The position numbers and the translations under genes are program-made. Below the pieces are notes generated by a model. The model saw nothing but the letters and a program-made list of their open reading frames with translations, searched no databases and was not told where the DNA came from. A stretch of DNA of 64,000 bases from Sphingobium sp. V4 (GTDB lineage: Bacteria; Pseudomonadota; Alphaproteobacteria; Sphingomonadales; Sphingomonadaceae), in contig NZ_CP081001.1 of the NCBI RefSeq assembly GCF_029590555.1, positions 1,054,001-1,118,000 of the forward strand. The letters run 5' to 3'. Positions 1,720 to 57,786 of the stretch are shown one piece after another; position 1 is the first letter of the stretch; each line of letters opens with the position of its first letter.

Positions 1720-1733
1720 CAACTGGTTGGTTG
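1720..1733. promoter_or_regulatory. Operator-like palindrome CAAC-N6-GTTG (site 1)
   Basis: The sequence CAACTGGTTGGTTG is an exact match to the CAAC-N6-GTTG pattern that recurs upstream of transcription units in this window. It lies 44 bp after the deacylase stop and about 200 bp before the kinase gene. A near-identical 21-base block, with two differences, occurs at 4743-4763. Its role as a transcription factor site is an inference. Confidence 0.5.
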
Positions 1734-1829
1734 ACGACTTGGGGTGCGGACGATACTTAAACAGAAAGCACGAAGTCTCCGTTCAAGCTCCTGTTCGGTT
1801 CTGATTGGGAAGTTCAAGTGGGGAGCGCC

Positions 1830-1857
1830 GGGTGCGGGGAGGAGACTCCCCGCACCC
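1830..1857 (+). terminator. Strong GC hairpin, terminator or attenuator
   Basis: A perfect 12-bp stem (1830-1841 paired with 1846-1857) encloses a GAGA tetraloop. There is no T-run after it, so it is not a textbook intrinsic terminator. It may stop transcripts from the upstream deacylase. If transcription of the kinase gene starts near the palindrome at 1720, it would lie in the kinase leader and could act as an attenuator. Confidence 0.5.
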
Positions 1858-1928
1858 CAGGCTGCCTTCGATTTGACACTTGCATCGCATTAGCTCCTCT
1901 CTAGGATTGAATATTTTACCGCACTATA

Positions 1929-3074
1929 ATGACCGGGAGAGCGTGGATCGTGAATTCTACTCCAGTTGTTCTTCAGTCGACCTCCGAAATGGAGAATATC
2001 GGCCATCGCGCGCGCGTCGAAGATATCGGGCCATCGTTCATCGCGTGGGCGCGGCAGCATTGGCCGGAACGCAGCGATTTCATCATTCGTAACTGGCGCG
2101 CGCCGGACAATGGTGCCTCCAGCCAGGTGCTCCTCTTCGATCTCGATTGGCAGGAAGAGGGGCGGGCGCATAGTTTGGGACTGGTGTTGCGGCTCGAAGC
2201 TGTGGGGTCGGTGGTCTTCCCGCGGATGTCGGACGGGTACGCCACTGGCATGGAGTTGGAATTCCTTGTGCAACGCGCGCTTCGGGAGCATTCGAGCGCT
2301 CGGGTTCCTCCCATGGTGGCGCTCGAACGGGACGAGCGCTTCCTTGGCCGTGCGTTTTATCTTGCGGAAATCGTGCCGGGCTTCGTTCCGCCGACTTTCT
2401 CGACCATGGCATCACAAGTGATGAAGGATCTCTCTCCCGCTCAACGGCGCAGAATGGTGTTGGGTGGAGTGGAGCAACTCGCCGCTATTCACGCTATGGA
2501 CTGGCAGAAGGCGGGATTGGCGATGTTGCTTCCTGGCGCGTCCGACGCTCCTGACACGCACGCCCACGTTCAGCGCTTCGCGGACGATCTTGTGGTGCGT
2601 CTCAACGGGCGCAGTCTTCCGGTGGTAGAGCGAGCCATGGATTGGTTGCTTGCGAACGTCCCAGCTGACGATCGAAATTCCATAATCTGGGGAGATTGCC
2701 GGCTTGGCAATATGATCTTCGAAACGACGGGGGATCCCGCCGCAGTGCTCGATTGGGAAGGGGCGGCAATAGCGCCTAGTGCTGCCGATGTCGGCTGGTG
2801 GCTCCATTATGACTGGCGCAATCATGAGTATGAATCGACGCCGCGCCTGCCGGGCGTGCCGGATCGGTCGGAGCAGCTCGACCATTATGTGGCGCTCACC
2901 GGGCATAGACCGGGTGATCTAGAATATTGGGCCACGATGGCCGCCATTAAGACCTTGATGGCGGTGTTGACCACGGCGAACCGCATGATTGCCAACGGGC
3001 TTGTCACGGAAGAGCAGTGCGCGTTCATCAAGAATAATCCTCACCATCATCGTCTCGAGAAACTTTTCGGATAA
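1929..3074 (+). CDS. APH-family phosphotransferase (small-molecule or hydroxyacyl-CoA kinase)
   Basis: This 381-residue protein belongs to the aminoglycoside-phosphotransferase/choline kinase fold. The catalytic loop reads IIWGDCRLGNMIF, with Trp in place of the usual His of the HGD motif but with the Asp and Asn kept, and the metal-binding motif is AVLDWEGA. APH proteins in catabolic clusters of Proteobacteria and Actinobacteria are often not resistance enzymes; LvaA and the APH domains of ACAD10/11 phosphorylate 4-hydroxyacyl-CoAs. That role is inferred here from the many acyl-CoA genes nearby. No clear ribosome binding site precedes 1929, and an in-frame ATG at 1989 is an alternative start. 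A second, longer APH gene lies at 12320. Confidence 0.8.
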   Translation: MTGRAWIVNSTPVVLQSTSEMENIGHRARVEDIGPSFIAWARQHWPERSDFIIRNWRAPDNGASSQVLLFDLDWQEEGRAHSLGLVLRLEAVGSVVFPRMSDGYATGMELEFLVQRALREHSSARVPPMVALERDERFLGRAFYLAEIVPGFVPPTFSTMASQVMKDLSPAQRRRMVLGGVEQLAAIHAMDWQKAGLAMLLPGASDAPDTHAHVQRFADDLVVRLNGRSLPVVERAMDWLLANVPADDRNSIIWGDCRLGNMIFETTGDPAAVLDWEGAAIAPSAADVGWWLHYDWRNHEYESTPRLPGVPDRSEQLDHYVALTGHRPGDLEYWATMAAIKTLMAVLTTANRMIANGLVTEEQCAFIKNNPHHHRLEKLFG

Positions 3075-3168
3075 TGCTGGGTTCGGGCGCGTTTGGCCTG
3101 CGGTGGCCTGAAGCTGTGTCGCGTCATGGTGTCAAGTGGACTCCTGTGCTTTTGTTCCGAGGCTTTTG

Positions 3169-4194
3169 ATGAGCTTGATTGTTACTCTGCCAAATGGCGA
3201 TCCGATCTGCCAATTCGTGCTTGCGGACGAGGCTCTCCATATTCCAGGTCCAGAGGAAAACTGGCAGGAAAGCGTTGCGATGTGGTGCAGCGATCTCGCC
3301 GGTCAGGCCAACCTGTTCATGCGGGTCGGCCGTGAACCGCATATGGATGGCGGCAACAACACGCTTTGGGCGTTTATGCAAACACCCGATTGCGTCTACG
3401 CTCGCAATGAGCAGTTCCCGTTGCGCCCGGGCGATATCGGGGATGCCCATATCACTTCCGGGGGGGTCGGTGGCTACGAATTCGACGGGCAAGGGACCCA
3501 CTGGTGGGTAAAGGATGAAGATGTTTCCTGGGACGTGTGGCTCACGCCTTATCATCAGCCGATTCCGCTGTTCCCAGCGCATAACTCCGATTACGTCCGT
3601 ACGGTCGGTAGCGCACACTTTGAGGCCGCTGACCGCATGGAGGGCACGATCAGAGTTAAGGGTGAGACGCGACAGATCAGGGGCTTCTCGTACCGCGATC
3701 ACAGTTGGGGACCGCGCAACTGGTCCGACATTCGGTGCCACCGTTGGACCAGCGGAGTGTTTGAGGACGATATCAGTTTCGCTTTTTCCAATTTCCTGAC
3801 GCAGTCATCAGGCATCAGTCGCCGCGGCTATATCCGCAAGGGTTCGGTTGTTCATTATACCCAAAAGGTCGATGTGATTCCTTACATGGAAGGCGACGGC
3901 TTCTCGCACCGGGGAGGCCTGATCATTGCGACGCTCGAAGACGGAACCACGCATCGGATCGAGCTTGATCTCTATGCCGAGGATTCGTTGGGCAACGTAT
4001 CACTCAAGCGCGATAGCGCAATGATCGATACACCTTGCCAGGCCCGCCTTGACGGACGCCTAGGTTACGCAATTCTGGAAGTAGGCGAGAACCCGCGCCG
4101 CGGCACCAATCTGATCGACTATGTCGAACGTGGGCTTTTTGGCTCTGGCCTACTGCGGTGGAAGGGACAGGATTTGGGAAGCCACATCCGGTAA
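3169..4194 (+). CDS. YRDHSWG-motif protein (DUF7064-like, AttH/CrtC-type lipocalin fold suspected)
   Basis: A 341-residue protein of a poorly characterised family found in sphingomonads and mycobacteria. The signature is GFSYRDHSWGPRNW near residue 180, followed by a beta-rich C-terminal half. The family is distantly reminiscent of hydroxyneurosporene synthase/AttH double-lipocalin proteins, which bind hydrophobic ligands; this is a judgement from pattern and was not searched. ATG 3169 is preferred because GAGG lies about 6 bases upstream; a GTG at 3136 would add 11 residues. No signal peptide is evident. A paralogue is encoded on the other strand at 6304-7272 with the same motif and a similar N-terminal WQES segment. 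Function unknown; a role in binding or isomerising a hydrophobic intermediate is speculation. Confidence 0.75.
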   Translation: MSLIVTLPNGDPICQFVLADEALHIPGPEENWQESVAMWCSDLAGQANLFMRVGREPHMDGGNNTLWAFMQTPDCVYARNEQFPLRPGDIGDAHITSGGVGGYEFDGQGTHWWVKDEDVSWDVWLTPYHQPIPLFPAHNSDYVRTVGSAHFEAADRMEGTIRVKGETRQIRGFSYRDHSWGPRNWSDIRCHRWTSGVFEDDISFAFSNFLTQSSGISRRGYIRKGSVVHYTQKVDVIPYMEGDGFSHRGGLIIATLEDGTTHRIELDLYAEDSLGNVSLKRDSAMIDTPCQARLDGRLGYAILEVGENPRRGTNLIDYVERGLFGSGLLRWKGQDLGSHIR

Positions 4195-4985
4195 ATGGGC
4201 TGCCTTGTCCAACCGTGAATTGAGCACCACAGCGCGTTCACTCTCAGCCTGATGTGCCAAATTGCCGTAATGGGGGCCTTGCTTCGGTTCGTGAAAAGTC
4301 GGAACGCGGCCTTGCCGATACGGCTGGCTACTCTGGTTGTAGAAAGGGCAATCTACTCTCGGCAGCGGTGTGGGGCGGTATGAGGGCGCAAACCTGCCGG
4401 AGCGACAAAGTCAACGGCTCGATTGGCTGGACGAGCTTTTCAAGCTGGAGCGCAAGCTCTCTATGGTCACAGAATCTCGGCTGTGCCATCGCATATGAAT
4501 GGCGGAATATGGCTCGCGGGTCGTGATGTGCTCATGCCCGGCCGAGGCATCCTCCTGAGGCCGCGGCCAAGATCAACCCGGCGCCCGGGCACCCCGATTG
4601 TCGTCTCAACCTACATTGAGGAGAAGGCCGACCTCGAGTGGTGGTGGACGAGGCCGACGTCACGTTCGGCCGCATCGACGTTTGGCTCCATGTGGCGGGT
4701 TGCGTTCGCGAGGGACCTTGGCCAGGGATCAGCTACCTTCCAAGCCGACTGGTTGGTTGACAACACAAGGCGCGACCAATATCCATTTATGAGCGGACCG
4801 AACTGAACAAACCGCATTGGGAAGCGGCATCGGAAGACTGCTGCGGATTTTCTTCACGGTATCTGGTTTGGTCGGGATCTACTGGGAAGGCGCAACGGTG
4901 CTGTGGGGCGACCGGATCGAGTGCCTGATCGCGTTGGTGGCGGTAACCAGCGGAATGTAAACATAACTGGACGAGGATGAGGAAT
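4195..4985. other. 790-bp stretch without an intact gene, decayed coding remnants
   Basis: Only short frames with poor start sites are present. Around 4418-4525 two frames joined by a shift read LDELFKLERKLS and SQNLGCAIAYEW, which resembles the C-terminal third of IS66 transposases. Around 4650-4730 the frame VVVDEADVTFGRIDVWLHVAG resembles the middle of an SDR enzyme. Both look like fossils of former genes. The right end holds an operator-like palindrome (4746-4759) and the leader of the next gene. Confidence 0.35.
4746..4759. promoter_or_regulatory. Operator-like palindrome (site 2)
   Basis: CGACTGGTTGGTTG matches CAAC-N6-GTTG with one mismatch. The 21-base context 4743-4763 matches the block around site 1 with two differences. 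It lies about 230 bp before the amine-dehydrogenase-like gene at 4986. Confidence 0.45.
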
Positions 4986-6098: not shown

Positions 6099-6220
6099 TT
6101 TCCTTTGGGACCTGGTTGATCCCTAACGGTTTCATGATCATTGTGATCGCCAAGCAATTTGCCTTGGTGTGAAATATGACATGGGAGCGACCCTGCGACC
6201 AGCACGCTGATCCGCCACGT

Positions 6221-6235
6221 CAACTATATGGGTTG
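6221..6235. promoter_or_regulatory. Palindrome CAAC-N7-GTTG, variant of the operator
   Basis: CAACTATATGGGTTG has the same half-sites as the other operators but a 7-base spacer. It lies between the 3' ends of two convergent genes, so a promoter role is doubtful. It may be a relic of an earlier gene order. Confidence 0.2.
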
Positions 6236-6303
6236 CGAGAAGACGCGCTCCTTCCATAATGTCGGACTGAGGCGGGCGATGTCCGCGCAAGATACGCTCG
6301 ACT

Positions 6304-7272
6304 TCACGGCGTCCGTCGTGGGTGAACTCCGTCTTGCTCTATACCGTTAATGAGCGACGTGGCAGGCAACTGCCCCATGCGCGAATTTTCGCTCAACTCA
6401 AAATCACCGATCCCGACGCGCCCTTGGTGGCGGATACGACAGATCGACTCGAAAAGGCCACTTCCCTTCCGATACGCGTAGAATCCCTCACACATCGGTT
6501 CGATCTCAAAATTTAGACACTCGCCGGATTCAAGTACGATTGATGCTGTTCCGCCTCGATGCGTGGCGCCATCCGCCTCCATGTGGGCAACAATGTCGAT
6601 CTCTTGGGAATAATGTACGACCCCGTCACGGACCACATATCCGAGTCGACGGATATTATCTCCGTCAGAGTGGAATGTGAGCAGGCACATGCTGAGGTCA
6701 GGTCCAAACACACCGTTCAGCCAGCGGTGTGTCTTTCGTTTCCACCAATGGCGCACGCCCCAACTGTGATCGCGATAGCCCAGCGCGTCGACCTCCACTG
6801 TGTCTCCGCGAATTGAAAGCCTCCCCTTCACTCGGCACGCGGCTTCGTAATGCGGGTAGCGGTGAAAGCTGTCCTGCGGTCGCCACAGTGCCACGGGAGG
6901 ATGCAGAAGGGTGCTCTGCAGGTCGATCGTTACTTCGTCATCCGAATGCACCCATCGGGTGTCTTCACCGTCAAACTCGTAGCGCGCGGCTTCCCCTGCT
7001 TTCAACAGGCTCTTGCCGACGTCGTCGGAGCGGAGCGCGAAATCCCGGCTGGACCCATAAACCCACTTCGGCGTGAAGGCGTGACACCAGAGGGTCGTGT
7101 CGCCCGCCAACAGATTGGGGGCATAGCCAAGTCGCAAAAATCCGCCGTAATCACCGGATGGGTCGCCCCAGAGGAGAACAAAGCTCTCTTGCCAGTAGGC
7201 GTCCTTTTCGGGCGAATGCGTCTGTTGGTCGGATAAGGGAAAGACGACGTCTTCCGGAATCAAATGGATCAT
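6304..7272 (-). CDS. YRDHSWG-motif protein, second copy
   Basis: Paralogue of the protein at 3169-4194, about 322 residues, with LGYRDHSWGVRHW in the corresponding place, a shared WQES segment near residue 30 and a shared HRGG segment in the C-terminal half. Overall similarity is moderate, so the duplication is old and the two probably differ in ligand. The start is uncertain: GGAAAGG lies 12 bases before ATG 7272 and directly abuts ATG 7284, and the frame opens further upstream to 7356. It is transcribed divergently from the SDR at 7423, with an operator-like palindrome in the shared upstream region. Confidence 0.75.
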   Translation of the reverse strand: MIHLIPEDVVFPLSDQQTHSPEKDAYWQESFVLLWGDPSGDYGGFLRLGYAPNLLAGDTTLWCHAFTPKWVYGSSRDFALRSDDVGKSLLKAGEAARYEFDGEDTRWVHSDDEVTIDLQSTLLHPPVALWRPQDSFHRYPHYEAACRVKGRLSIRGDTVEVDALGYRDHSWGVRHWWKRKTHRWLNGVFGPDLSMCLLTFHSDGDNIRRLGYVVRDGVVHYSQEIDIVAHMEADGATHRGGTASIVLESGECLNFEIEPMCEGFYAYRKGSGLFESICRIRHQGRVGIGDFELSENSRMGQLPATSLINGIEQDGVHPRRTP

Positions 7273-7372
7273 GGTTCTGAGCATCCTTTCCACGAGATGG
7301 TTTCGCCGTGACGGTGATGCCAAGCTGACCACGCGCCCTTGACGCACATAGACCATAGCAATAAGCTTTGAT

Positions 7373-7386
7373 CAACTGGCCGGTTG
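7373..7386. promoter_or_regulatory. Operator-like palindrome (site 3), divergent promoter
   Basis: CAACTGGCCGGTTG is an exact CAAC-N6-GTTG and a palindrome over 12 of its 14 bases. It lies between the divergent YRDHSWG gene (leftward) and SDR gene (rightward, start 7423), which fits a shared operator. Confidence 0.5.
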
Positions 7387-7422
7387 GTTTTGCAGCCTGC
7401 CTATTTCATATGAGGGAGAGCT

Positions 7423-8169: not shown

Positions 8170-8303
8170 TTCGTCAGCGCTATCCGGTCCGTAAGTGACC
8201 GTGATAACGTAATTCCATTTGTTCTAGCTCAAGACAATTAATTTCTGGGCACAAGCACGCCCGGTTCGAAAAAAAGCAAGTATATCAGACAGGGGAGGAA
8301 AAA

Positions 8304-14690: not shown

Positions 14691-15076
14691 TAGGCGGGTG
14701 CCCCGGGGCGCATTCTTATACACGATCATGTGCGCCGTGGATTCTCAATCTTGCTCAGATTGTGAGGTTTGTGGTGGCCGCGCCAGCCCTCTTGAGTTCC
14801 TTGGTTGAAATCCAAGAGGGGTGAACGACAGGGGTGCGGGTCAGGACCACATACGCTACTTGATCGGCGGGCGATAAGACTGGAAAGACTCACTTCGAGA
14901 ATGCGCCTGGTGGCTATCGAACGGGCCTCAAACATCCAGTTGGTGGACAAATCCGATACCGCCATATAGTGTTCTCTGGCCCTCCGAATATCCGCACCGA
15001 GAGAGCCGCTCGATCAGGGCGAAAGAGGCGTGTTCCGGCGGGCAGTACGGTTTCTTGAAAGGGACTGCAGAAATAC
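14691..15076. other. 386-bp intergenic region with one hairpin
   Basis: No convincing gene is seen. An 8-bp inverted repeat (CCCTCTTG at 14787-14794, CAAGAGGG at 14813-14820) separated by 18 bases could form a stem after the hydrolase gene; it lacks a T-run. The rest shows no recognised signal. Confidence 0.35.
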
Positions 15077-16369: not shown

Positions 16370-16687
16370 ATGCCAGTTTTGAATGTAACAAATCGCGAAG
16401 GCATCGAACGAACTATCGAGTGTTCGAACGGGCTCTCCTTGATGGAAATCATCAGGAACGCGAACTTTGACGAACTTTTGGCGCTGTGCGGCGGTTGCTG
16501 CTCATGCGCGACCTGTCACGTCTACGTCGATGATGATTTCACGGAGGCGCTTCCGCCGATCAGCGATGATGAGAACGACCTGCTCGATAGCTCCGACCAT
16601 CGGCAGAGTAATTCGCGGCTTGCCTGCCAAATTTCATTTAGCGACATGCTCGACGGGCTTAAGGTTCGCATCGCACCCGAAGACTGA
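16370..16687 (+). CDS. [2Fe-2S] ferredoxin, adrenodoxin/putidaredoxin type
   Basis: A 105-residue ferredoxin with cluster ligands Cys40, Cys46, Cys49 and Cys86 in the C-x5-C-x2-C-x36-C spacing of ferredoxins that serve bacterial class I P450s and Rieske oxygenases. The motif CATCHVYV follows the third ligand. It would pass electrons from a flavoprotein reductase to a cytochrome P450, and one P450 is encoded at 39935-41134. The gene immediately downstream is a destroyed ferredoxin reductase, so this ferredoxin now needs a reductase from elsewhere. Confidence 0.92.
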
Positions 16688-17389
16688 GGTCATGCGCCTA
16701 TCCCGGTGTAGCAGCACGGGCTCCGACACGTCGCATGAGCCTCGTCGGTCTGATCGTCATTTCCTCATGTTTAGATGTTTAGGGCAGTCGCATGAGAAGC
16801 TTTGATGTCCTGATTACATGGTGGCGCCCAGGCGGCGATCGCGTTGTGCCAGGCTAAATTTGAAGGCTCGATCGCGATCATCGGCGATGAGTCCCAGCCT
16901 CCCTATGAACGCCCGGCCGCTTTTTGGGACGAGCGCAATGTCGACATGTTGCTCAGCTGCCGCGTCGTCTCGGTTGATCCGGTCGCGTGCACAGTCACGA
17001 CCGATGACGGCGCCGCGATCGGCCAGAAATATCTGGTCTGGGCGACCGGCGGCTTGCCGCGGCGCCTGGCCTGCGCCGGCCATAACTCGGCTGGCGCGCA
17101 TATGGTGCGGACCCGGGCCGACGGCGACCGGATGTTGGCCGAAATGCCGAACGTCACCCGAGCGGTGGTGATCGGGGGTGAATATATCGGGCTCGAGGCG
17201 GCCGCGGTCCTCGCCAAGTTTGGCAAGAAGGTTGTCGTGCTCGCGCGCGTTGCTGGCGAGCCTTTGGCGCGCTTCTAGGAGGCCGAGCATTGCGCGCATG
17301 GAGTCGAGGTGTGCCTTGGTGCGCAGGTGGATTGCATCGAGGACGTCTACGGTAAGGCGATCGGCGTCCGCCTGCACGACCGCGAGGTC

Positions 17390-17641
17390 CTAGATGTTTG
17401 GTCCCGGCGATTGATGGTGCGGGTTTGATATAAATCGCCCTGGTTCATTTTCCCAGCATTTGCAGATATATTCGTAGGGTGTGAGGCCGCGCAGGGTCTT
17501 CAGGCGACGAGCAAAATTGTAGGCTGCGACAAAGTCACCAAGATGCAGCCGGAGTTGATGGTGCGTCTCGTAATGGTAGCGCTTGACGGTCGCCTCCTTG
17601 ATTGTCCGGTTCATCCGTTCGACCTGGCCATTATCCGGCAT
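17390..17641 (-). pseudogene. IS481-type transposase, C-terminal fragment
   Basis: This fragment encodes NGQVERMNRTIKEATVKRYH, carrying the third catalytic acid (Glu) of the DDE triad, and the C-terminal tail. It is the continuation of the transposase fragment at 19195-19962; the two halves were separated by the IS110-type insertion. The family is clear from the motif. Confidence 0.85.
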
Positions 17642-17874
17642 GAAGGCGGCGGCGCTTCAAGACTCGGCTGATCTTCGGATCGGCGCTATGGTGAGACCAT
17701 CCGGGTTCTGGGGCGCTGGAAGCACGTGAGTGCGGGCAGGCCGACTTAAGACCATGGGCTGTGAGCCCGAGCCGTTATTTGGCCGCCCCTGCGGTCCGCC
17801 CGGATGCGCTGCGAGCGCGAATCCGTAGTTGCCGTGTTGCCCGCACGCTTCCGATCTGAACGAGGAGGAAGATC
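17633..17874 (+). ncRNA. Candidate IS110 bridge RNA region
   Basis: The 240-bp non-coding left end of the IS110-type element, upstream of its recombinase gene, is where related elements encode the bridge RNA. No folding was computed and I did not find a convincing guide match to the target by eye, so only the position supports this. Confidence 0.3.
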
Positions 17875-19101
17875 ATGCGGGTGATAGGAATGGATATCCA
17901 CCGCACGTTTGCCGAGGCGGTGATGATCGACGGTGACAGGCTGGTCCGGCTGGGTCGCGTGAATATGTCGCGCGAGCACCTGGCCGCGTTCGCCGCCAAG
18001 CTGACGCACGAGGATCATATCGTCGTGGAGGCAACCGGCAACGCTCAGGCGGTGGTGGAGGCCGTCGCCCCCTTCGTTGGTCGGGTGGTCATTGCCAACC
18101 CACGGCAGGTGCATCTGATCGCGAAAGCGCGGATCAAGACCGACGTCATCGACGCGACGGTGCTCGCTCGTCTGTACGCGAGCGGCTTTTTGCCCGAGGT
18201 GTGGGTGCCGGATCAGAAGACGATGAGCCTTCGCCGGCAGGTGACACGGCGCAATCAGGTCGTGCGTCAACGCGTGCGACTAAAGACGATGATCCAGGCG
18301 ATCCTGCACGCTCACCTTGTGCCGCAATGCCCCCATGCCGACATCGCGGGTCCGAAGGGTCGCGCCTGGCTCCTGGCGCAACTGCTCCCCGACGACGAGA
18401 CCGCGGCGATCGAGCGGCATCTGCGCGAGTATGATCGGCTGACTGAGGACCTTCGGGTTCTCGAACGCGAGCTCGCGCGTGATGCGCTAGCGAGCGCCGA
18501 GACGAAGCGGCTCATGACGATCCCTGGCATCGACATGGTTGTCGCGGTCGGCCTGCTCGCGGCAATCGGGCCTGTCGACCGCTTCACCAGCCCCGGGCGT
18601 CTAGTCGCCTTCCTTGGGTTGAATCCCAGCGTGCATCAATCGGGGAACAGCCCGGCCAGGCATGGCCGTATCACCAAGCAGGGTCCCTGCCACGCCCGGA
18701 CAATGCTGGTCGAGGCAGCATGGCAGGCGGTTCGAGCACCCGGCCCGCTTCGGGCGTTCTACGAACGCGTCCGCGGGCGGCGCGGCACGCACGTCGCCGC
18801 GGTCGCCGTCGCTCGCAAGATTGCGGTCATCGTCTGGCATCTGCTCACGCGCGGCCAGGACTATGCGTGGGTCCGTCCCGCGCTCCACGCAAAGAAGCTG
18901 CGCGATCTCGAGCTGCGATCCGGCCAGCCCGCTCGCCGAGGTCAGCGCGGCGCCGGGTACGAGTACAACTTGACCAAGTCCCGGCAGGAGGAGCGGCAAC
19001 GCGGCGAACGAGCCGAAGCCGCGTACAAGCGACTAACCGAGGGTTGGACGAAGCGAGGCAGTAGGGTGCCTGCGAGCGCCTCAGAGGAGGCACGACAATG
19101 A
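17875..19101 (+). CDS. IS110-family transposase (DEDD recombinase)
   Basis: A 408-residue protein with an N-terminal RuvC-like DEDD domain (GMDIHRTFAEAV near residue 5, VVEATG near residue 52, KTDVIDATVLARL near residue 102) and a C-terminal Tnp_20 domain with the serine motif QSGNSPARHGRITKQGP. GAGGAGGAAG precedes the ATG. The frame looks intact, so this copy could be active. Confidence 0.93.
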   Translation: MRVIGMDIHRTFAEAVMIDGDRLVRLGRVNMSREHLAAFAAKLTHEDHIVVEATGNAQAVVEAVAPFVGRVVIANPRQVHLIAKARIKTDVIDATVLARLYASGFLPEVWVPDQKTMSLRRQVTRRNQVVRQRVRLKTMIQAILHAHLVPQCPHADIAGPKGRAWLLAQLLPDDETAAIERHLREYDRLTEDLRVLERELARDALASAETKRLMTIPGIDMVVAVGLLAAIGPVDRFTSPGRLVAFLGLNPSVHQSGNSPARHGRITKQGPCHARTMLVEAAWQAVRAPGPLRAFYERVRGRRGTHVAAVAVARKIAVIVWHLLTRGQDYAWVRPALHAKKLRDLELRSGQPARRGQRGAGYEYNLTKSRQEERQRGERAEAAYKRLTEGWTKRGSRVPASASEEARQ

Positions 19102-19194
19102 AGGCAACGTGGTCGGGCCTTCACCTCCAGCCCAACTCTTCGCCACGAGGTCGCCCGCAGACTCGGAGAAAATAGCACCACTGCGCGAAAGGGG

Positions 19195-19962
19195 CTATTC
19201 AATCCCATCCGTGGTCCACGGATGACGTGGTTTGGTGAGACGGTGCTGGATGTCGAGGTCGGCGCAGGCCGCTTCGAAGGCGTGGCAGCGAAACGGCAGT
19301 TTTTGCGCCCGCATTTCCTTGATGTCCTCCGGCGTCCAACCATCTCCGGCCGGATCGGTAAAATGCGTCCCGTTATCGGTGAGCACGGTGTGGATGCGGT
19401 ATGGCACGGCTGCGGCGAGATGGCGCAGGAAGTCGCCAGCGACGCGGCGAGTGGCCTTCTCATGCAGTTCGACAAAGGCGAACTTGCAGGTCCGGTCGAT
19501 GGCCACCAGCAGATAGAGCTTGCCCTGCTCGGTTCGCACCTCGGCGAGATCGATGTGGAAGTAGCCGATCGGATACGCCTTGAACTTCTTGCGTGCGGGC
19601 TTGTCGCCATCAACATCGGGCAACCGGCTGATGCCATGGCGCTGGAGGCAGCGGTGCAACGAAGATCGCGTCAGGTGCGGGATCGTCGCCTGTAGCGCAT
19701 AGAGGCAGTCGTCCAGCGGCAGCAATGTGTGACGGCGAAAGGCCACCACCACGGCCTCCTCCTCAACCGTCAGCGTCGTGGACCTGGCTTCCTTCGGCCC
19801 AGTACGCAGATCCGCCGTCGACGACCGCTTCTTCCATTTGGCGACCGTCTTCTGGTTGACCCCGTGGCGCTTTGCCAGAACTCTCAGGCTCTCTTGACTA
19901 TGCTGTATTGCTCGACGCACTGCCTCTGTCGTGCGGGCGCTCCCGTGTAAAATCTGTCCCAT
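19195..19962 (-). pseudogene. IS481-type transposase, N-terminal fragment
   Basis: From ATG 19962 this fragment encodes a helix-turn-helix region (SLRVLAKRHGVNQKTVAKWKK, positions about 20-40), the first catalytic Asp in YFHIDLAEV and the second in LTDNGTHF, and breaks off after HRLTKPRHPWT where the IS110-type element enters. The last few codons before the stop at 19195 are from the inner element. Together with 17390-17641 it would form a complete IS481-type transposase. Confidence 0.87.
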
Positions 19963-20805
19963 AGTGCGTCCTTCCACTCGCTTGCGGATATTGCACCATC
20001 AATCGCCGGGACCAAACATCTAGCGTGCGAGATGGTGATAGTCGGCATCGGCATCATTCCTGCCGTCCCGCCGTTGATCGCGGCGGGTGCTGAGAGCGTC
20101 AATGACGTCGCCTTCGATGCGGAATGCCGCACCGGCTTGCCTGACATCTTCGCGATTGGCGATTGCGCTGCGCACAGCCACGCCTTTGCCGACGGCGCTA
20201 CGATCTGGCTGAGAATGCCAACGACCAGGCAAATGTCGTCGCGAGGCGATCACCGCCGGCCGGTCGATTACTATGCCGTGTCTTGGTTTTGGTCGAACTT
20301 ATATGACTTGCGCCGGCAGGCGGTGGACCTGTCGATCAGCTTCGATGAGGCGATCGTTCGCGGCGATACAGGCGCGCGCAGCTTTTCGGTCGTCTATTTG
20401 AAGGACGGCCGGGTTATCGGGTTATCGTGCTCGACTGCGTTAACGCGACCAAGGACTATGTTCAGGATCGGAAATTGGTCGAGGGAGGGGCAAACCTGAC
20501 AAGGCCCGCCTCGCCGATGCATCGATCCCACTCAAGGAGGTGATGCCGCTTGAATCTTATCCTCCGGCTGAATGAAAGGTGACCTCGACCGAAAAGCGGA
20601 GGCTGACATTGATCTCCTCGCTGCGCGACATCCAAACGCCGCTGGTATTCTTGGGCATTTTGCTGCTCGGCCTCCCACCGAGCTGACCCGCACATTCAAG
20701 GGCGGCACCGCCTCTGATTGGCTCCCATCAATGGATTGAGGCTTTAGGGTAATGATCCAGCTATCGTGTCGAACGTCGGTCGTCGTCCCGCTAGAGGGGG
20801 CGTGC

Positions 20806-21834
20806 TCAGCTGTCGAATGTCACGATGATTTTCGAACATTCGGGTGCTCCGGCCATTGCGAATGCATCCAGTACATTATCGAATGCGAACAAGTGGCTGG
20901 TGATATCGGTGATGGCGTCTGCGAGGTCAGGGAGCGCCGCCACCACCTCGGGAATCTCGGTAGGATAGCCGATGGCGCCGACGATGGTGATCTCCTTGCG
21001 CATGACTGTAAACAGGGAAACGGTTTCCGGCTCTTCATGCACGCCGGGCAGCACCACGCGCGCGCGAAACTTGGCCATATCGAGTATGGCCGGAACGATG
21101 CCGGCTGCTCCAGCCAAATCAATGAAAACATCGGTGCCGACCACGGGGCTGTTCTTGTACAGATCAACCCCATGAAACTGGGCCAGCCTCTCCGCCACAT
21201 CTTCGCGCGACGCGTCGATGACAGAACGTGCGCCTAGTGCAAGTGCCCGGCCAAGGCGGGCGGAGGAGCGTGCGATGGTGACAATATCATTGATTCCCAT
21301 GCGCTTCAGCCAGAGAATGGCGGCCAGTCCTATCGGACCGGCGCCATAAATCACGACTTTTTCCGAGGGCTGGCACTTTCCCTGATAGATCGCGTGCAAG
21401 GCCACCCCCAACGGGTCGGTAAACGCCGCTTGCTCGTATGTGACGCCGGGTGGAATTTCGAACACGTCTTCGTTGAGCTTCACGTCCCGAACCAGAAAGC
21501 GATGAGCAAAGGCTCCCTCAGGCGCGCCATTACCAAGGATGCCCAGCTTGTTCGCTGGGTCCGCTGATTTGGCCATCGGGTTGATGATCACTCCCAAACC
21601 CGGCTGGATATCTTTTACGTGCTCGCCGACCGTTGTGACGATGCCCGTCGCTTCATGCCCGATCGGCAGTGGCTGCCCTTCTGACCTGAGCCTGCCGTTT
21701 CTCCTATAGATGAGATCCGTTCCACAGATTCCGCACGCTTTCGTCTGTACGATGATGTCATTCGGTCCCGCCAGCGGCTCTTGCACGTTATCCAGCCGAA
21801 GATCGTTGCGGCCATGGATCTGGAGTTGCAGCAT
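20806..21834 (-). CDS. Zinc-type alcohol dehydrogenase (MDR), lacking structural zinc site
   Basis: A 342-residue medium-chain dehydrogenase. The catalytic zinc region is CGICGTDLIYR with GHEATG, and the cofactor motif is VVIYGAGPIGLAA. The loop that normally carries four cysteines for structural zinc reads INPMAKSADPANKLGIL with no cysteine, so this copy has only the catalytic zinc. Start ATG 21834 is preferred because GAGG lies 6 bases upstream; the frame is open to 21936. It is divergent from the SDR at 22348, with an operator-like palindrome in between. It probably oxidises a polyol-like or secondary alcohol. Confidence 0.87.
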   Translation of the reverse strand: MLQLQIHGRNDLRLDNVQEPLAGPNDIIVQTKACGICGTDLIYRRNGRLRSEGQPLPIGHEATGIVTTVGEHVKDIQPGLGVIINPMAKSADPANKLGILGNGAPEGAFAHRFLVRDVKLNEDVFEIPPGVTYEQAAFTDPLGVALHAIYQGKCQPSEKVVIYGAGPIGLAAILWLKRMGINDIVTIARSSARLGRALALGARSVIDASREDVAERLAQFHGVDLYKNSPVVGTDVFIDLAGAAGIVPAILDMAKFRARVVLPGVHEEPETVSLFTVMRKEITIVGAIGYPTEIPEVVAALPDLADAITDITSHLFAFDNVLDAFAMAGAPECSKIIVTFDS

Positions 21835-22347
21835 AACATCCTCGCCATTATAATTATTAATCGACAATCGTCTTGCGAAGCAGACCCGTCGATCGGCTCT
21901 CATGATTGTCTTCCCCGACACGTATGACACTGTCAAAATCGACGTTCAGTCAAATGGACGGTAGATCATTTGGAAACTGCCCTATATCGACGAGTCCTGC
22001 AAGCCTTGGTTTGGGGCTGAAGGAGTGTTGGGGTCGCAAGTCTACGGTGTTCGGCGCGCTTTTTGTGCCTATTCAGGAGTGGTAATCCTTGGGCGGTTGC
22101 CTGCTTGCACGTCGCTCTCGAGGGATGCCGACACAACGCGCCGCCCTTCTTGCCAACTATTCCAACCAATCATATGGTTGACATTTAGAGGGTATCTGAG
22201 GGCGACGGCGCTCGGGAAGCGGATGCGCGACGGACGAGGCGACCATCGACTGCCCGGAAGATATCGGAATGGGCTCAGTGACTTGTCGAAGGCGATGTCG
22301 AGCGAAACTCGCGATCCCTGGTTGCGATTGAGGAAAGGGAGATAGAA
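21835..22347. other. 513-bp divergent intergenic region
   Basis: It separates the leftward alcohol dehydrogenase and the rightward SDR and contains the operator-like palindrome at 22167-22180. No protein-coding gene is supported. Confidence 0.5.
22167..22180. promoter_or_regulatory. Operator-like palindrome (site 4)
   Basis: CAATCATATGGTTG matches CAAC-N6-GTTG with one mismatch and shares the CATATG centre with site 7. It is preceded by CCAAC and followed by AC, giving AACCAATCATATGGTTGAC. It lies 168 bp before the SDR start. Confidence 0.45.
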
Positions 22348-23177: not shown

Positions 23178-23549
23178 TCAGTTCCGTAACCTTAACCGAT
23201 CGACGAACAAAGCGAATGCAGCCGATGGCTGGCGGCGGCTCGGATAGTACAGGTGATAGCCGGGAAACGGCTGCGTCCAATCGGCAAGGATCTGCTTCAA
23301 CGCACCACTCGCGAGATATGGTGCGACCTGATCTTCCAGAACAAAGGCCAACCCAAACCCGGCTAGAGCCGCTTCCAAGACCATCTTTGCGTTGTCGAAG
23401 ATCAGCGGTCCATTCATTCTGATTCGGAGCTGCTCCCCGCCCTTCTCCAGTTCCCAAGCATAGAGACTTCCTGCGCTGCGCATGCGGAGATTGACGGCAC
23501 GATGGCGTGTAAGCTCCTCCTATAGCGCGACGATCTGGGTGAGAAGCTT
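23178..23549 (-). pseudogene. LysR regulator, C-terminal fragment
   Basis: Frame-continuous sequence encodes the C-terminal part of a LysR effector-binding domain: RHRAVNLRMRSAGSLYAWEL, then LIFDNAKMVLEAALAGFGLAFV and YYPSRRQPSAAF. A TAG stop interrupts the frame before EELTRHR. The matching N-terminal part is at 26133-26711, on the other side of an IS21 element. The two parts do not join cleanly: each carries a version of the segment corresponding to EDA/EELTR, so recombination as well as insertion seems to have taken place. Confidence 0.75.
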
Positions 23550-23620
23550 GCGTCAATCAGGATGAGAACTGATCGTCGCGGTGTTCATGTGGTGCCTGCT
23601 TTGATTGACGCTGGCAAGCG

Positions 23621-25995
<2,375 letters not shown>

Positions 25996-26048
25996 TCAAA
26001 GTACCTGACCGGCCGCAACCATCAGAAACGCCCCCGAAAAAGGGCGCC

Positions 26049-26107
26049 ATCGCCACCTGCTGATCCGGCTCCGGGCTACGCCCTACGCCGGATCAGCAGG
26101 TGGCGAT
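26049..26107. repeat. 20-bp perfect inverted repeat upstream of istA
   Basis: Arms 26049-26068 and 26088-26107 are perfectly complementary, with a 19-base loop. The position between the IS21 right end and istA suggests a structure that blocks read-through transcription into the transposase or occludes its ribosome binding site, as seen in other IS elements. This role is inferred. Confidence 0.6.
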
Positions 26108-26148
26108 TCTCATCTTGATTGACGCTGCTCTCTCATCCTGATTGTCGC

Positions 26149-26711
26149 GCGGCATCCTCCGGCGCTTCTGCAATGCCGTAGCGCTCGAAATAGGAAGGCG
26201 CGCCTACCACAACCAGTCTCAGGTCGGGTCCGATCCGCACGGCGATCATGTCCTTGGCGAGTGCTTCGCCGATGCGCACGCCTGCGTCGAAGCGCTCATC
26301 GACAATGTCGGTCATGGCGGGATCCACACTCAGTTCGACCTGCACCTCTGGATATTCCGGGAGCCAATCCTTGATCATGGGCCAGAGCACCGACTCACAA
26401 GCATGTTCGCTGGCGGTGAGCCGAATGGTGCCCGACGGGGTCTTGCGAAGCGTCCCGACTGATCGGAGGCCTTCTTCAATATTCGCCAAGGCTGGCCCCA
26501 GCCTGTCGAGCAATCTGGCACCCGCCTCGGTCGGCGACACCTTGCGAGTAGTCCGGATCAGGAGCCGGATGCCTAAGCGCGTCTCTAAGCGACGAAGCGC
26601 GTGGCTCAGAGCCGACTGCGATATGCCTAGGCGAGCAGCGGCACGTGTGAAATTGCGTTCGTCCGCGATAACTGCGAAAACGTGTAAATCGTTAAGGTCG
26701 TCGCGATGCAT
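26149..26711 (-). pseudogene. LysR regulator, N-terminal fragment
   Basis: About 188 residues: a complete winged helix-turn-helix (NDLHVFAVIADERNFTRAAA, ISQSALSHALRRLE) and the first part of the effector domain, up to SYFERYGIAEAPEDA, where the IS21 end follows. The usual LysR length is about 300, so the C-terminal third is missing. It is divergent from the SDR at 26884, the classical LysR arrangement with its target. The truncated product may still bind DNA but is unlikely to respond to an effector. Confidence 0.85.
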
Positions 26712-32071: not shown

Positions 32072-32178
32072 TTGATCTCTCCCAACGCATGTCCGCTAGC
32101 CCCTCGCAGTGCTCGACACAACCAAGCTTTGAATTTCAGACTCCAGGCCATTTGGACGCATTGCCGCCGTCCGTCAAC

Positions 32179-32192
32179 CAACTATATGGTTT
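32179..32192. promoter_or_regulatory. Operator-like palindrome (site 5), divergent promoter
   Basis: CAACTATATGGTTT matches CAAC-N6-GTTG with one mismatch and is preceded by GTCAAC. It lies between the two divergent acyl-CoA operons (starts at 32071 leftward and 32318 rightward), well placed to control both. Confidence 0.5.
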
Positions 32193-32317
32193 TGATCGCT
32201 GGCGGCGCTTCTTCGCTTGAGTTTTAGGAGGAGATCGCTCTATGGACGCTCTCAATTAATACGACCGGATGGTTGAGGTGGCGGCCGAACCGGGCGGCCG
32301 CGAAGAAAGGATGCCTA

Positions 32318-41134: not shown

Positions 41135-41266
41135 TTCCTCTCCTGCTGCTGGACCGACTCCAGTCAATGCCTGGGCTTCGCTCCTGAATGACGAACCCGC
41201 GTATTTTTTCTATGCCGTCGTTATGGCCGGGAAAACCAATTCCAAGTGGAATAGAAGGCTAACTTT

Positions 41267-41280
41267 CAACTCAACGGTTG
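41267..41280. promoter_or_regulatory. Operator-like palindrome (site 6), divergent promoter
   Basis: CAACTCAACGGTTG is an exact CAAC-N6-GTTG. It lies between the divergent P450 (start 41134) and SDR (start 41380) genes, 100-130 bp from each. Confidence 0.5.
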
Positions 41281-41379
41281 GCAAGGGGGAGGATCTTCTC
41301 CTATCAACTGTCGGTCTCGCCGCCAATCGTCCCAGGATGTTCGGTTGTGGCAAGGCGCTGATCTTATGATCTGGAAGGG

Positions 41380-42180: not shown

Positions 42181-42288
42181 GCTTGGCCCGACGATATCTG
42201 CCCTGATCGTCGGCGTGGAACGCCCCTGCCGGTCATCGCAAGCGCGCGCCCGGATGCTGAGCTTGACTGCGAATGGCTGCGGGATTAC

Positions 42289-42302
42289 CAACCATATGGT
42301 TG
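42289..42302. promoter_or_regulatory. Operator-like palindrome (site 7), perfect
   Basis: CAACCATATGGTTG is a perfect 14-bp palindrome and an exact CAAC-N6-GTTG. It lies 79 bp before the nitroreductase gene that heads a four-gene rightward unit. It is the clearest example of the recurring site. Confidence 0.6.
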
Positions 42303-42380
42303 AAAAAATGCTCTCCTCGCGGCAGGTTTATCCGATGATGGAGGGGGCAGGGGCGTGATGATCGCGCGAATTGGAGGGGT

Positions 42381-46208: not shown

Positions 46209-46272
46209 AGCTTGTCCTTGGGCAAGACAGCAAACAGTGTGGGCAGCGGCCGGGATCTCGGGATGTCCAAGT

Positions 46273-46309
46273 CAACCGTTTGGATGACGCAATATTGACT
46301 GGCTGGTTG
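46273..46309. promoter_or_regulatory. Pair of operator-like palindromes (site 8)
   Basis: CAACCGTTTGGATG (46273-46286) and TGACTGGCTGGTTG (46296-46309) each match CAAC-N6-GTTG with one mismatch. The first also extends to GTCAACC-N4-GGATGAC. They lie 58-94 bp before the TonB receptor gene. Confidence 0.45.
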
Positions 46310-46366
46310 AGTGGGCTAAGAAGGTCCTGCAGCTTGCTGCCAATTTAGACACTCAAGGAGGGGAAC

Positions 46367-52107: not shown

Positions 52108-52239
52108 CCTGCACCGAAAGTTCGGGAGAACCCACATCTGGGGAAAGTTCGGGACCCGTTGACACGAAGCAAGGGCAGAGCGGCCGGTTGGGTTCCAGAC
52201 CGCTCAACGCCCAGACTTCCGTCTCTGCCCGCCGCGCTG

Positions 52240-54708: not shown

Positions 54709-55154
54709 TATTTCCTCCCCTTACATGCTACGGTTCATTAGCCGCTGCGTCGGTCAACTAGTCAGTCGGTAGCTTTTATGCGGAGGAATGGCAAGAGGGC
54801 AAGCGCCGACATCCGATTCCGAGCGGACGTTGCGGGAAAGACGCAGGCCGACCTTGAGCGCGATCGATCGATGCCAACCTGAGTCAAAGCGAGGTTTTAA
54901 CGGCTCGCTCGGATATCGTAGCCGCGGAAGACAAAGCAATATTCGATATGGAATGGATGGATGGAAATGGTTCGACGCTGCGATTTTTATGTCATCACCG
55001 ATTAACGTGAGACTATCAACTGTCTATATGGTAGATCGCCGTTTGCTAGGGATGATCGGCGGTAGTGGCGAGGGCGAAGCGGGTGATCGCCCCCCGTGCG
55101 CAAAAGCAGGATTTTTCCATACCTAAATGGTGTATGCCGGGGAAGGCTTGAAGA
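54709..55154. other. 446-bp divergent intergenic region
   Basis: It lies between the leftward TonB receptor and the rightward molybdopterin oxidoreductase. It contains the operator-like site at 54755-54768. A second imperfect symmetric stretch, ATACCTAAATGGTGTAT, is near 55121. No gene is supported. Confidence 0.45.
54755..54768. promoter_or_regulatory. Operator-like palindrome (site 9)
   Basis: CAACTAGTCAGTCG matches CAAC-N6-GTTG with one mismatch; on the opposite strand CGACTGACTAGTTGAC aligns with the extended block of sites 1 and 2 at 13 of 16 bases. It lies 47-60 bp before the start of TonB receptor copy 3. Confidence 0.45.
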
Positions 55155-57377
55155 ATGGTAGATATTCAGTCCAAACACCGGACGTCTAGAGGGCGGCCTG
55201 ACGGCATATACCCTGGTCTGTGCCGGCTTTGCGTCGGCTACTGCCCGATTATGGTTACAGTTGAGAACGGTCGAGCTGTTAAAGTAGCCGGCGATCCGGA
55301 CGCACCGTTGTTTGATGGCTACACCTGCCCGAAGGGAAGGGCCCTTCCTGACCTGCATTACGGTCCACAACGATTGCTGCAGTGCCTGCGCCGTCACGTC
55401 GACCGAGGCTTTGTGCCGGTTCCAAGCGCAGCAGTCGTAGAGGAAATCTCAGATCGCGTTCGCTCGATCATTGATCGACATGGACCGCAGGCAATTGCGG
55501 TATATTACGGCACTGGCAGCACTAGTTCCTCTCTTCCGCTTACCGTCGCAAAGGCTTGGTTGGACGCGCTCGGCTCCACCATGTTTTTCTCGGTCAACAC
55601 GATCGATAAGCCAGGCATGCAGATTGCGCAGGCACGTCACGGGCTTTGGGAAGCGGGCCATCCCTCTTTTGAAGATGCGGAGGCTTGGATTCTTGTAGGG
55701 AGCAATCCCATCATCAGCAAGACGGGCGGTTTTCCTCAAAACAACCCGGGTATGCGGCTTAAGGAAGCAGTCAATCGGGGCCTTAAGCTGATCGTCATCG
55801 ATCCACGGCGCAGCGAGGTTGCGCGGCGTGCCCATATTCACCTGCAATGCCTACCAGGCAATGATCCCGCGGTGCTTGCGGCGATCGTCCATGTCATCAT
55901 TGCTGAGCGCCTGTTCGACGCCGATTTCGTGGACGCAAACGCGGATGGGTTGGAGGCACTAGAAAGCGCTGTCGCGTCCTTCAAGCCCGCAGCAGTTGCG
56001 GCTAGAGCCGGGGTGGAAGAGGCCGACCTCATCGAGGCGGCCCATGTGCTGGCTCGGGCACGTAGCAGCGGCATTTTCTGTGGGACTGGACCGAGTTTCG
56101 CGACATATGGGACGCTCACCGAATATCTCGCTAACTGCCTGACGACTTTGTGTGGTCACTGGGCACGGGCGGGCGACGTTCTCCAGAAGCCCAACGTTCT
56201 TCTTCCTGCATGGTCCGCTCGGGCTCAACCGATCGCACCTTATCCGGAAGCCAGCGGCGCGCAACTTCGCGTGCGGGGATTGCGTGGAAATGCGAGTGGT
56301 CTCCCGGTGGCCGCGCTTGCTGATGAGATACTGCTGGAGGGTGAGGGTCAGATCAAGGCGCTCTTCTGCCTAGGCGGGAATCCGATGATGGCTTTCCCCG
56401 ATCAAAGGCGAACCCATGAGGCGTTGCGGAAGCTCGACCTTCTTGTGGTATTGGATCCGGAAATGAACGCGACCGCGAGGCTGGCCGACTATGTCCTGCC
56501 ACCTTCTTTAATTTTGGAGACGCCGGGTACCAGCCTCTTAATGGAGGCGATAAAATACAACGCCCATTCGCGGGGCCTCGACCAGCCCTATGCGCGGTAC
56601 GCGCCGGCGATTGTCGATCCCCCGGCGGGATCAGACCTGATGGGAGACTGGGAGTTCTTTTATGAGTTGGCAAAGCATATGGGTTTGCCGCTTACGATCC
56701 ATAGCCATTACGGCATTGGGCCGCATAGGGAAGCGCCGTGTCACAGCGTGGAGCTCGATATGACTGACCGTCCTTCGACTGACGAACTGATCGAATTATT
56801 GCTTCAAACGTCACGAATTCCGTTGGCGGAGGTGAAGAACTATCCACATGGCCATATCTTCGCGGAAGTCAAAGAGCGAGTCCGTGAACGCGATCCCGCG
56901 TGTATGGCGCGATTGGATCTCGGAAACAGCACCATGATGGGCGAACTCGAGCAGATTGCCGTCGAAAGTTCTGGTGGTGTCGACGCAGAGGATTATCCTC
57001 TCCTACTCGTACCAAGGCGCGTGAATCACCTCGTCAATTCCTATGGGCGCGCAAGTCCGAGCCTTAACAGCAAGAAGCCATATAATCCGCTGTCGATCAA
57101 CCCAGCTGATGCTTCACGCTTTGCGATCTCCAGCGGTGATCAAGTGCTCGTTCAATCACGGTTCGGGGAGGTGCGCGCCATCGTCGAGGAGGACAAGGAA
57201 ATACGGCCGGGTGTTGTTTCGATGAGCCATTGCTTTGGTGGAAATCCGGGCGATGATGAAGACCCATCAACGGAAGGTGCCAACGTCGGCAGGTTGATTA
57301 GCGTTGAGGATAGACCCGATCCGATAACAGGTATTCCGCGAATGGGTGCCTTGCCAATCCGCATCGTTTCGCTTTGA
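55155..57377 (+). CDS. Molybdopterin oxidoreductase (bis-MGD, formate-dehydrogenase-like catalytic subunit)
   Basis: A 740-residue member of the DMSO-reductase superfamily. Cys23, Cys26, Cys30 and Cys58 form the N-terminal [4Fe-4S] site (CRLCVGYC ... YTCPKG). The middle carries MGD-binding segments (VGSNPIISKTGGF, VIDPRRSE, LGGNPMM) and the C-terminus the molydopterin-dinucleotide domain (VNHLVNSYGRA, LSINPADA). No Tat signal or partner subunit gene is visible, so it is probably cytoplasmic. The substrate is unknown; water-dependent hydroxylation or oxidation of an intermediate is possible. GGGGAAGG lies about 8 bases upstream of the ATG. Confidence 0.9.
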   Translation: MVDIQSKHRTSRGRPDGIYPGLCRLCVGYCPIMVTVENGRAVKVAGDPDAPLFDGYTCPKGRALPDLHYGPQRLLQCLRRHVDRGFVPVPSAAVVEEISDRVRSIIDRHGPQAIAVYYGTGSTSSSLPLTVAKAWLDALGSTMFFSVNTIDKPGMQIAQARHGLWEAGHPSFEDAEAWILVGSNPIISKTGGFPQNNPGMRLKEAVNRGLKLIVIDPRRSEVARRAHIHLQCLPGNDPAVLAAIVHVIIAERLFDADFVDANADGLEALESAVASFKPAAVAARAGVEEADLIEAAHVLARARSSGIFCGTGPSFATYGTLTEYLANCLTTLCGHWARAGDVLQKPNVLLPAWSARAQPIAPYPEASGAQLRVRGLRGNASGLPVAALADEILLEGEGQIKALFCLGGNPMMAFPDQRRTHEALRKLDLLVVLDPEMNATARLADYVLPPSLILETPGTSLLMEAIKYNAHSRGLDQPYARYAPAIVDPPAGSDLMGDWEFFYELAKHMGLPLTIHSHYGIGPHREAPCHSVELDMTDRPSTDELIELLLQTSRIPLAEVKNYPHGHIFAEVKERVRERDPACMARLDLGNSTMMGELEQIAVESSGGVDAEDYPLLLVPRRVNHLVNSYGRASPSLNSKKPYNPLSINPADASRFAISSGDQVLVQSRFGEVRAIVEEDKEIRPGVVSMSHCFGGNPGDDEDPSTEGANVGRLISVEDRPDPITGIPRMGALPIRIVSL

Positions 57378-57786
57378 CAATCGGGAGCCTCGAAATTTCG
57401 AATCTCTTTGGGCAGGTCTGGAAGTTCGGCAAAGTTGAAATATCGGCAGATTTCAACAAAAGATGGGGTGCGGCCAGCGGCCAGCCACTATTCACGATTC
57501 TAACGATAGAATATACTTGAAATCTTATTGGCATTCTCCAGGTGGCGACTGTTTCCATAGTCCTGTCAATCGGGAACAGGTGACTGGGCTGTATTGACCA
57601 CATCGGCAATTGCTTCTGGCGAGATCATTGGCAGCAATAACCTCGCTATCGTATTGGGCTTGAGACGATATTTTCTCCCAACTGAACGGTTGATTGATTG
57701 GCGCTTTTGTAGTAGCCGATACCTTCTAAGGCGTTCCGCGGCGGCAGGGCGGACCAAAGTTGCACGAATGACCGGAAAGGATTTAA
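57378..57786. other. 409-bp intergenic region with symmetric elements
   Basis: It contains a 12-bp palindrome TCGAAATTTCGA (57390-57401), an 8-bp stem GTTGAAAT/ATTTCAAC with an 8-base loop (57434-57457) that might end the molybdopterin oxidoreductase transcript, and the operator-like site at 57679. No gene is supported. Confidence 0.5.
57679..57692. promoter_or_regulatory. Operator-like palindrome (site 10)
   Basis: CAACTGAACGGTTG is an exact CAAC-N6-GTTG, close to site 3 (CAACTGGCCGGTTG). It lies 95-108 bp before the second CoA-transferase gene. Confidence 0.5.

Follow-up and report, generated by a model that had tools for sequence, protein, structure and literature searches.

Several regulators of the TetR family have been described that help to place the system reported here: KstR, the regulator of cholesterol catabolism in mycobacteria, with 31 intergenic motif instances and 83 genes predicted for M. 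smegmatis (PMC1995591); EdcR of the alphaproteobacterium Caenibius tardaugens, which represses an estrogen/steroid catabolism cluster (PMC8700777); PfmR (TTHB023) of Thermus thermophilus HB8, with nine promoter-linked genome sites (PMC7022988); and DarR, whose 20-bp operator is occupied by a dimer-of-dimers (PMC10636190). Here, we analyzed a 64,000-nucleotide stretch of the Sphingobium sp. V4 genome (the window), within a 264-kb region of this 4.54-Mb genome, in which an earlier note had described a recurring palindrome, CAAC-N6-GTTG, upstream of genes (C1 coordinates refer to the genome contig, and numbers without prefix to the window). With high confidence, we propose that these palindromes would be operators of one TetR repressor (C1:1129967-1130731), predicted to govern some 30 upstream regions within a catabolic island of 181 kb. 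The sequence supports this reading in several ways: the sites are present, they cluster in the island and lie between genes, and in foreign genomes the motif goes with the recognition helix of this repressor. Such islands hold many genes with unknown substrates; the operator and candidate repressor show which genes belong together, the candidate repressor offers a handle for switching the island genes on jointly, and the helix-operator pair allows a search for similar islands in other genomes.

The regulon is ordinary in kind, with KstR as the precedent, and is probably a KstR-like local regulon for the catabolism of steroid- or terpenoid-like compounds; like KstR, it would combine one TetR repressor with many operators and tens of lipid genes. 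The details differ: the KstR operator as reported, TnnAACnnGTTnnA, leaves 2 bp between AAC and GTT where the island site leaves 6 bp; the KstR protein model reaches 22.8 bits here, far below its cut-off of 280; and the island sites, unlike those of KstR, gather in one island. EdcR differs in its proposed operator (TnnCnnTACnAnTnGTAnnGnnA), and is described as covering two operons and perhaps its own gene (PMC8700777). Among the papers listed in a literature search, no title or abstract opening describes the present regulon, and the motif strings matched one unrelated paper only.

Among solved structures, the top match of the candidate regulator by both sequence and fold is PfmR (3vpr; ~30% identity), whose consensus is reported as (a/c)Y(g/t)A(A/C)YGryCR(g/t)T(c/a)R(g/t) and TACCGACCGNTNGGTN (PMC7022988). 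The reported PfmR sites share the core ACYRnnYRGT with the island motif and differ in the outer bases. At TTHA0987, two 16-bp PfmR sites lie 4 bp apart, each bound at nanomolar or better affinity (PMC7022988), and this offset is the geometry of the island double sites; the two sites before the Thermus gene (L127) form a double core too. PfmR further resembles the candidate in its setting, an operon of acyl-coenzyme A (CoA) dehydrogenase, short-chain dehydrogenase/reductase (SDR), MaoC, and AMP-ligase genes, and differs in its recognition helix (GLSKAALYHH, as against SLNKGTLYYY). We infer that the candidate may work like PfmR, without filing it as PfmR. DarR is a fold relative of the candidate, with a different operator (TAGATACTCCGGAGTATCTA) and different, cyclic-nucleotide, ligands in its report.

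Shape and distribution of the palindrome

Exact copies of CAACN6GTTG are more frequent in the window than chance would give, as the earlier note had claimed: there are eight, against a mean of 0.62 in 100 dinucleotide shuffles, none of which reached eight. The five copies that it listed (1720, 7373, 41267, 42289, and 57679) have correct coordinates and lie in intergenic DNA according to our gene calls, made with a simple self-written caller, and three copies beyond those that it listed are in coding sequence (7478, 11273, and 36775). Its weaker sites at 4746, 22167, 32179, 46273, 46296, and 54755 are also correctly located and intergenic, although 46296, taken for a one-mismatch copy, carries two mismatches. 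When one mismatch is allowed, the pattern is only about twofold enriched (38 matches, 20.6 expected). With the refined models described below, the window holds 14 merged operators (Table 1), four of which (14928, 21946, 32257, and 55016) were absent from the earlier list. They fall in 11 of 28 upstream intergenic regions of at least 80 bp, a set that includes transposase genes and gaps left by the caller, so that the description of the palindrome as marking most transcription units was too strong.

CAAC-N6-GTTG is a real element that belongs to a larger, 16-bp site, YCAACYRNNYRGTTGR. In many cases this site is overlapped by another, weaker copy at an offset of 4 bp, and the two form a 20-bp palindrome. 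Motif discovery without a seed yields a longer form (TCAACCAWCYRGWTGGTTGA); on 101 island intergenic segments (40 kb), it returned TCAACCAAmyrkwTGG at a log-likelihood of 161, the best listed shuffled run reaching 60, and seeded runs gave 180 for the palindromic 20-mer TCAACCAwCyrGwTGGTTGA and 116 for a palindromic 16-mer. Across 22 sites, of which two overlap each other, a column unused in site selection holds a purine in 41 of the 44 half-sites. Matches to the 16-bp matrix recur 17 times at an offset of exactly 4 bp, and no other offset within 120 bp is seen more than twice. Double cores, defined as ACYRNNYRGT twice, 4 bp apart, with at most one mismatch each, occupy 17 positions in 39 kb of intergenic island DNA, compared with six in 144 kb of coding island DNA.

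It could be supposed that such palindromes are non-regulatory, being either chance occurrences or repeats spread by mobile elements, given that the window contains several transposase genes and that the island adjoins a tRNA and an integrase gene. We consider this very improbable, because the bases flanking the 16-mer carry little information, the sites precede genes, and the motif recurs near one protein family in unrelated genomes.

The signal is local. Genome-wide, the exact core barely exceeds its reversed control (37 vs 28 copies), yet eight of these 37 copies fall in the window, i.e., in 1.4% of the genome. The refined sites are concentrated in the island. The core with flanking bases, YCAACYNNNNRGTTGR, has 90 genome matches at up to one mismatch (control 40), and 25 in the 264-kb region, 21 of them intergenic by our gene calls. 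The 20-bp pattern at up to two mismatches has 15 matches in the genome (control 0) and 15 in the 264-kb region, and a single match to the 20-bp matrix at a score of at least 14 occurs in 208 kb of other loci of this genome. The earlier note had named equal frequency in coding DNA or before housekeeping genes as the outcome that would speak against a regulon; merging the operators from both matrices, we found 38 intergenic sites and one in a called gene, all within C1:1028500-1209500 (181 kb); the 83 kb of flank on either side held none. A point against this count is that island intergenic DNA served as the training set for both matrices. Part of the intergenic excess is thereby built in, and the decisive, independent test is the motif from foreign genomes. 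Within the island, an operator lies in 30 of the 72 intergenic regions upstream of a gene.

A family-wide regulon was rejected on two counts, as this genome has six exact copies of the 16-bp site and at most four occur in any of 198 other sampled family genomes, and it has 15 matches to the 20-bp pattern compared with at most five in 396 other family genomes. Elsewhere in the genome, tandem GCAACC-N4-GGTTGC palindromes at C1:701743/701785 (L010) precede genes that look, by eye, like SRPBCC and ArsR genes, and we took this pair for a look-alike site of another system. Another genome copy, at C2:598029, stands before a gene of unknown role.

A candidate TetR regulator and its relatives in other genomes

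The earlier note had expected a single regulator, perhaps of TetR type, encoded outside the window and carrying the same site in its own promoter, and a TetR gene of the island supports this expectation. The gene at C1:1129967-1130731 (255 aa) lies 12 kb beyond the window end, with an operator (C1:1129631-1129650; score 24.0) in its divergent upstream region. Its product has TetR_N (46.5 bits, cut-off 24) and TetR_C_24 (68.2, cut-off 26.4) domains, its AlphaFold2 model shows an all-helical TetR fold (mean predicted local distance difference test score 78), and the best PDB matches are TetR proteins. Among 5.8 billion proteins, it has 13 relatives with 47-59% identity across 75% or more of its sequence, and the recognition helix SLNKGTLYYYY is invariant in the 12 that were aligned. 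Among the 24 TetR loci of this genome, the helix LNKGTLYY occurs only here, and an operator scoring at least 14 lies within 1.5 kb only here and at C1:1151552.

The contig scan with the TetR family used two bait peptides, one of them LNKGTLYY, and returned six loci, from Pseudomonadales and Alphaproteobacteria metagenome-assembled genomes (MAGs), a Phenylobacterium MAG, and Pseudonocardia, all six of which carry the helix. In 20 kb around each, exact 16-mers number 2, 1, 2, 4, 1, and 0 (five of six loci; shuffled means at most 0.03), and one-mismatch copies 3, 3, 3, 9, 5, and 1 (shuffled means at most 0.2). Genome by genome, exact copies total 5, 5, 6, 13, 4, and 3 against 1, 2, 1, 1, 1, and 4 in the controls, and many sit on the contig of the TetR gene itself (8 of 13 in L131, 5 of 6 in L130, 2 of 5 in both L128 and L129, and 2 of 4 in L132; contigs matched by position). 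In Pseudonocardia, two of the three exact copies flank the TetR gene, 13-16 kb away. From L128 to L132, 22 of 28 matches to the 16-bp matrix (score at least 13) are intergenic and precede a gene, the other six all being in L132. De novo discovery on the 32-kb contig of G400 that carries the TetR homologue, made independently of the window, yielded TCAACTrwATAGTTGA (log-likelihood 101, as against 53 at best for shuffled DNA), and at a threshold of 10 this motif marks 21 intergenic and three coding positions in the island (19% of which is intergenic), 11 and none in the window, and none and one in the flanks.

Helix and motif are also absent together. Among 29 TetR-homologue loci of the family, LNKGTLYY occurs in none (six-frame check) and the 16-bp motif in none at up to one mismatch; and among 392 genomes of the order searched for closer relatives, eight matched, with no new locus holding LNKGTLYY or a 16-bp match of at least 13. 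Two further observations concern related proteins. One contig (G093:C18; L098, L112) has two TetR homologues near a related yet different palindrome (20-bp score 13.8 each), one with the helix MNKASIYYYF, and a second relative of the regulator, with the helix LNKGTIYYYY, lies at L138:8276-8827 on a foreign contig (G399:C15) that is rich in the motif.

The regulon might instead be real and answer to another TetR protein, either C1:1151552-1152229 (related to mycobacterial Rv0078/EthR2) or the TetR-like C1:1178124-1178717 behind a P450 gene. We regard this as unlikely, although the latter has an operator (22.6) before the preceding P450 gene: neither protein has a homologue in the motif-bearing foreign loci (E ≤ 1e-5), and the 11 foreign loci around homologues of TetR 1151552 contain LNKGTLYY in none, no motif copy at up to one mismatch, and a best 20-bp score of 12.9. 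An IclR protein of the island was likewise without homologues in those loci. Lux boxes are often palindromes of about 20 bp, and the island encodes a LuxR-type protein at its right edge (C1:1208736-1209488) whose gene may end a same-strand row behind two operators, so that the sites could be read as lux-box-like targets. This is highly improbable, and we rejected LuxR as the regulator: its homologues on plasmids are mostly on conjugative ones (64 of 105 records), 29 of 30 loci of LuxR and its homologues lack a 20-bp site of at least 14 (one has 17.3), the homologue loci hold one match at up to one mismatch in 104 kb, and none of the motif-bearing foreign loci has a homologue at E ≤ 1e-5.

Several observations count against regulation of the island by the TetR protein at C1:1129967, or weaken the evidence for it. 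First, regarding the regulator, its operator sits nearer to the divergent acyl-CoA dehydrogenase gene, TetR 1151552 has two operators of its own (19.0 and 17.1) about 0.7-0.9 kb before its gene, and the test for homologues of rival regulators covered four proteins (TetR 1151552, TetR-like 1178124, IclR, and LuxR) of an island that also has LysR genes. Second, regarding the foreign loci, the helix was one of the two bait peptides, so that sharing it is a selection condition, and overall identity is only 28-37%; Pseudonocardia is weak, with no exact copy in 20 kb and three genome-wide against four in the control; six of the eight matches in L132 lie inside called open reading frames; and a second foreign motif, from four loci jointly, is off-centre and discriminates less (45 intergenic, 21 coding). 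Third, operator and target are conserved together only suggestively: among 13 comparable genes, an operator accompanies both members of the pair in three cases (an enoyl-CoA hydratase gene, the DapB-like gene of the window at 4977, and the acyl-CoA dehydrogenase gene that diverges from the regulator gene), which is not significant alone (Fisher P 0.41). Finally, of the 72 intergenic regions that precede a gene in the island, 42 have no operator, double cores were called in only 16 of the 39 merged operators and the other 23 are single, and wider or non-palindromic models score higher, up to 223, in log-likelihoods without correction for parameter number.

If the TetR protein at C1:1129967 is the regulator, one dimer would sit on the 16-bp site YCAACYRNNYRGTTGR and two dimers on the overlapping sites, 4 bp apart, of the 20-bp form, a stoichiometry suggested by the 4-bp offset of PfmR sites and by the dimer-of-dimers of DarR on 20 bp. 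Binding would repress the transporter and degradation genes and perhaps the repressor's own gene; repression rather than activation is expected from membership in the TetR family. The repressor may then be released by an acyl-CoA derived from the substrate of the island, presumably a hydrophobic, steroid- or terpenoid-like compound, given that CoA thioesters are ligands of its fold relatives AibR, FadR, and MbdR (AibR and FadR complexes are named among the structure matches). KstR2 also binds a CoA thioester. Of all the steps in this proposal, those that concern substrate and inducer are the least certain. More broadly, we hold it about evenly balanced that helix LNKGTLYYYY and operator TCAACYRNNYRGTTGA define a new TetR family that serves as the master switch of large islands for the catabolism of hydrophobic (steroid- or terpenoid-like) substrates, and travels with these islands, in Alphaproteobacteria, Pseudomonadales, and perhaps actinobacteria; the island described here would be a nearly self-contained case with about 38 operators, beside conjugation genes, in which many operators are now 20-bp sites for two dimers.

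Island genes, island edges, and operators in the window

Operator-linked genes encode TonB receptors, a P450, SDRs, CoA transferases, an enoyl-CoA hydratase, a nitroreductase, and a molybdopterin oxidoreductase, and elsewhere the island has a KshA-type oxygenase, a ChsH2-like protein, thiolases, another P450, and acyl-CoA dehydrogenases. This content suggests, without proving, steroid- or terpenoid-like substrates. A KshA-type oxygenase, a ChsH2-like OB-fold protein, and a thiolase are encoded at C1:1203359-1204270 and 1199822-1202528 (L051), which suggests marks of steroid-like side-chain and ring degradation, and a KshA-type oxygenase is also found in one foreign locus. The 60% identical homologue of the DapB-like gene at 4977, in L138, has an operator upstream too.

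At the left edge (L005), tRNA-Lys (C1:1028343-1028418) adjoins a phage-type integrase gene (1028674-1030110); no attachment-site repeats longer than 14 bp were found for the island in the 264 kb read. The right edge (C1:1210210-1231514; L051, L052) carries conjugation genes, with the LuxR gene nearby. These match a 191-kb plasmid of Sphingobium indicum UT26S at 85% identity, with 85% of a 14-kb query aligned, and an integrated conjugative element may have brought the island in.

Table 1 Predicted operators in the window, with adjoining genes and matrix scores
Feature	Position	Genes	Remarks
Operator	1715..1734	Before APH-type kinase gene (1929, +)	Exact CAACN6GTTG inside; 20-bp score 21.4, double core
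Operator	4741..4760	Before DapB-like dehydrogenase gene (4977, +)	20-bp score 20.5
Operator	7372..7391	Between DUF7064/DUF7065 gene (6304-7356, -) and SDR gene (7423, +)	Exact copy; score 16.5, 16-bp 19.0
Operator	14928..14947	Before DUF2889 gene (15077, +)	Score 21.1, double core
Operator 1 of 2	21946..21965	Between alcohol dehydrogenase gene (-) and SDR gene (22348, +)	Score 18.3
Operator 2 of 2	22162..22181	Between alcohol dehydrogenase gene (-) and SDR gene (22348, +)	Score 22.4
Operator 1 of 2	32174..32193	Between enoyl-CoA hydratase gene (-) and CoA-transferase III gene (+)	Score 22.8
Operator 2 of 2	32257..32276	Between enoyl-CoA hydratase gene (-) and CoA-transferase III gene (+)	Score 19.0
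16-bp operator	41266..41281	Between P450 gene (39935-41167, -) and SDR gene (41380, +)	Exact copy; 16-bp score 18.5
Operator	42284..42307	Before nitroreductase gene (42381, +)	Exact copy; 16-bp score 23.1
Operator	46268..46287	Before TonB-dependent receptor gene (46367, +)	16-bp score 20.2
Weak second site	46291-46310	Before TonB-dependent receptor gene (46367, +)	Score 10.7
Operator 1 of 2	54754..54769	Between TonB receptor gene (-) and molybdopterin oxidoreductase gene (+)	16-bp score 16.7
Operator 2 of 2	55016..55035	Between TonB receptor gene (-) and molybdopterin oxidoreductase gene (+)	Score 21.4
Operator	57674..57697	Before CoA-transferase III gene (57787, +)	Exact copy; 20-bp score 20.5, 16-bp 21.3

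The centre of the nitroreductase operator, CAACCATATGGTTG, is a perfect palindrome. Elsewhere in the window, an IS21-type istA/istB pair (23178-26711) separates two pieces that seem to belong to a single LysR gene (the downstream one assigned by eye), and ferredoxin-like (by eye) and ferredoxin-reductase pieces, the latter apparently fragmentary, lie amid transposase genes at 16370-21936.

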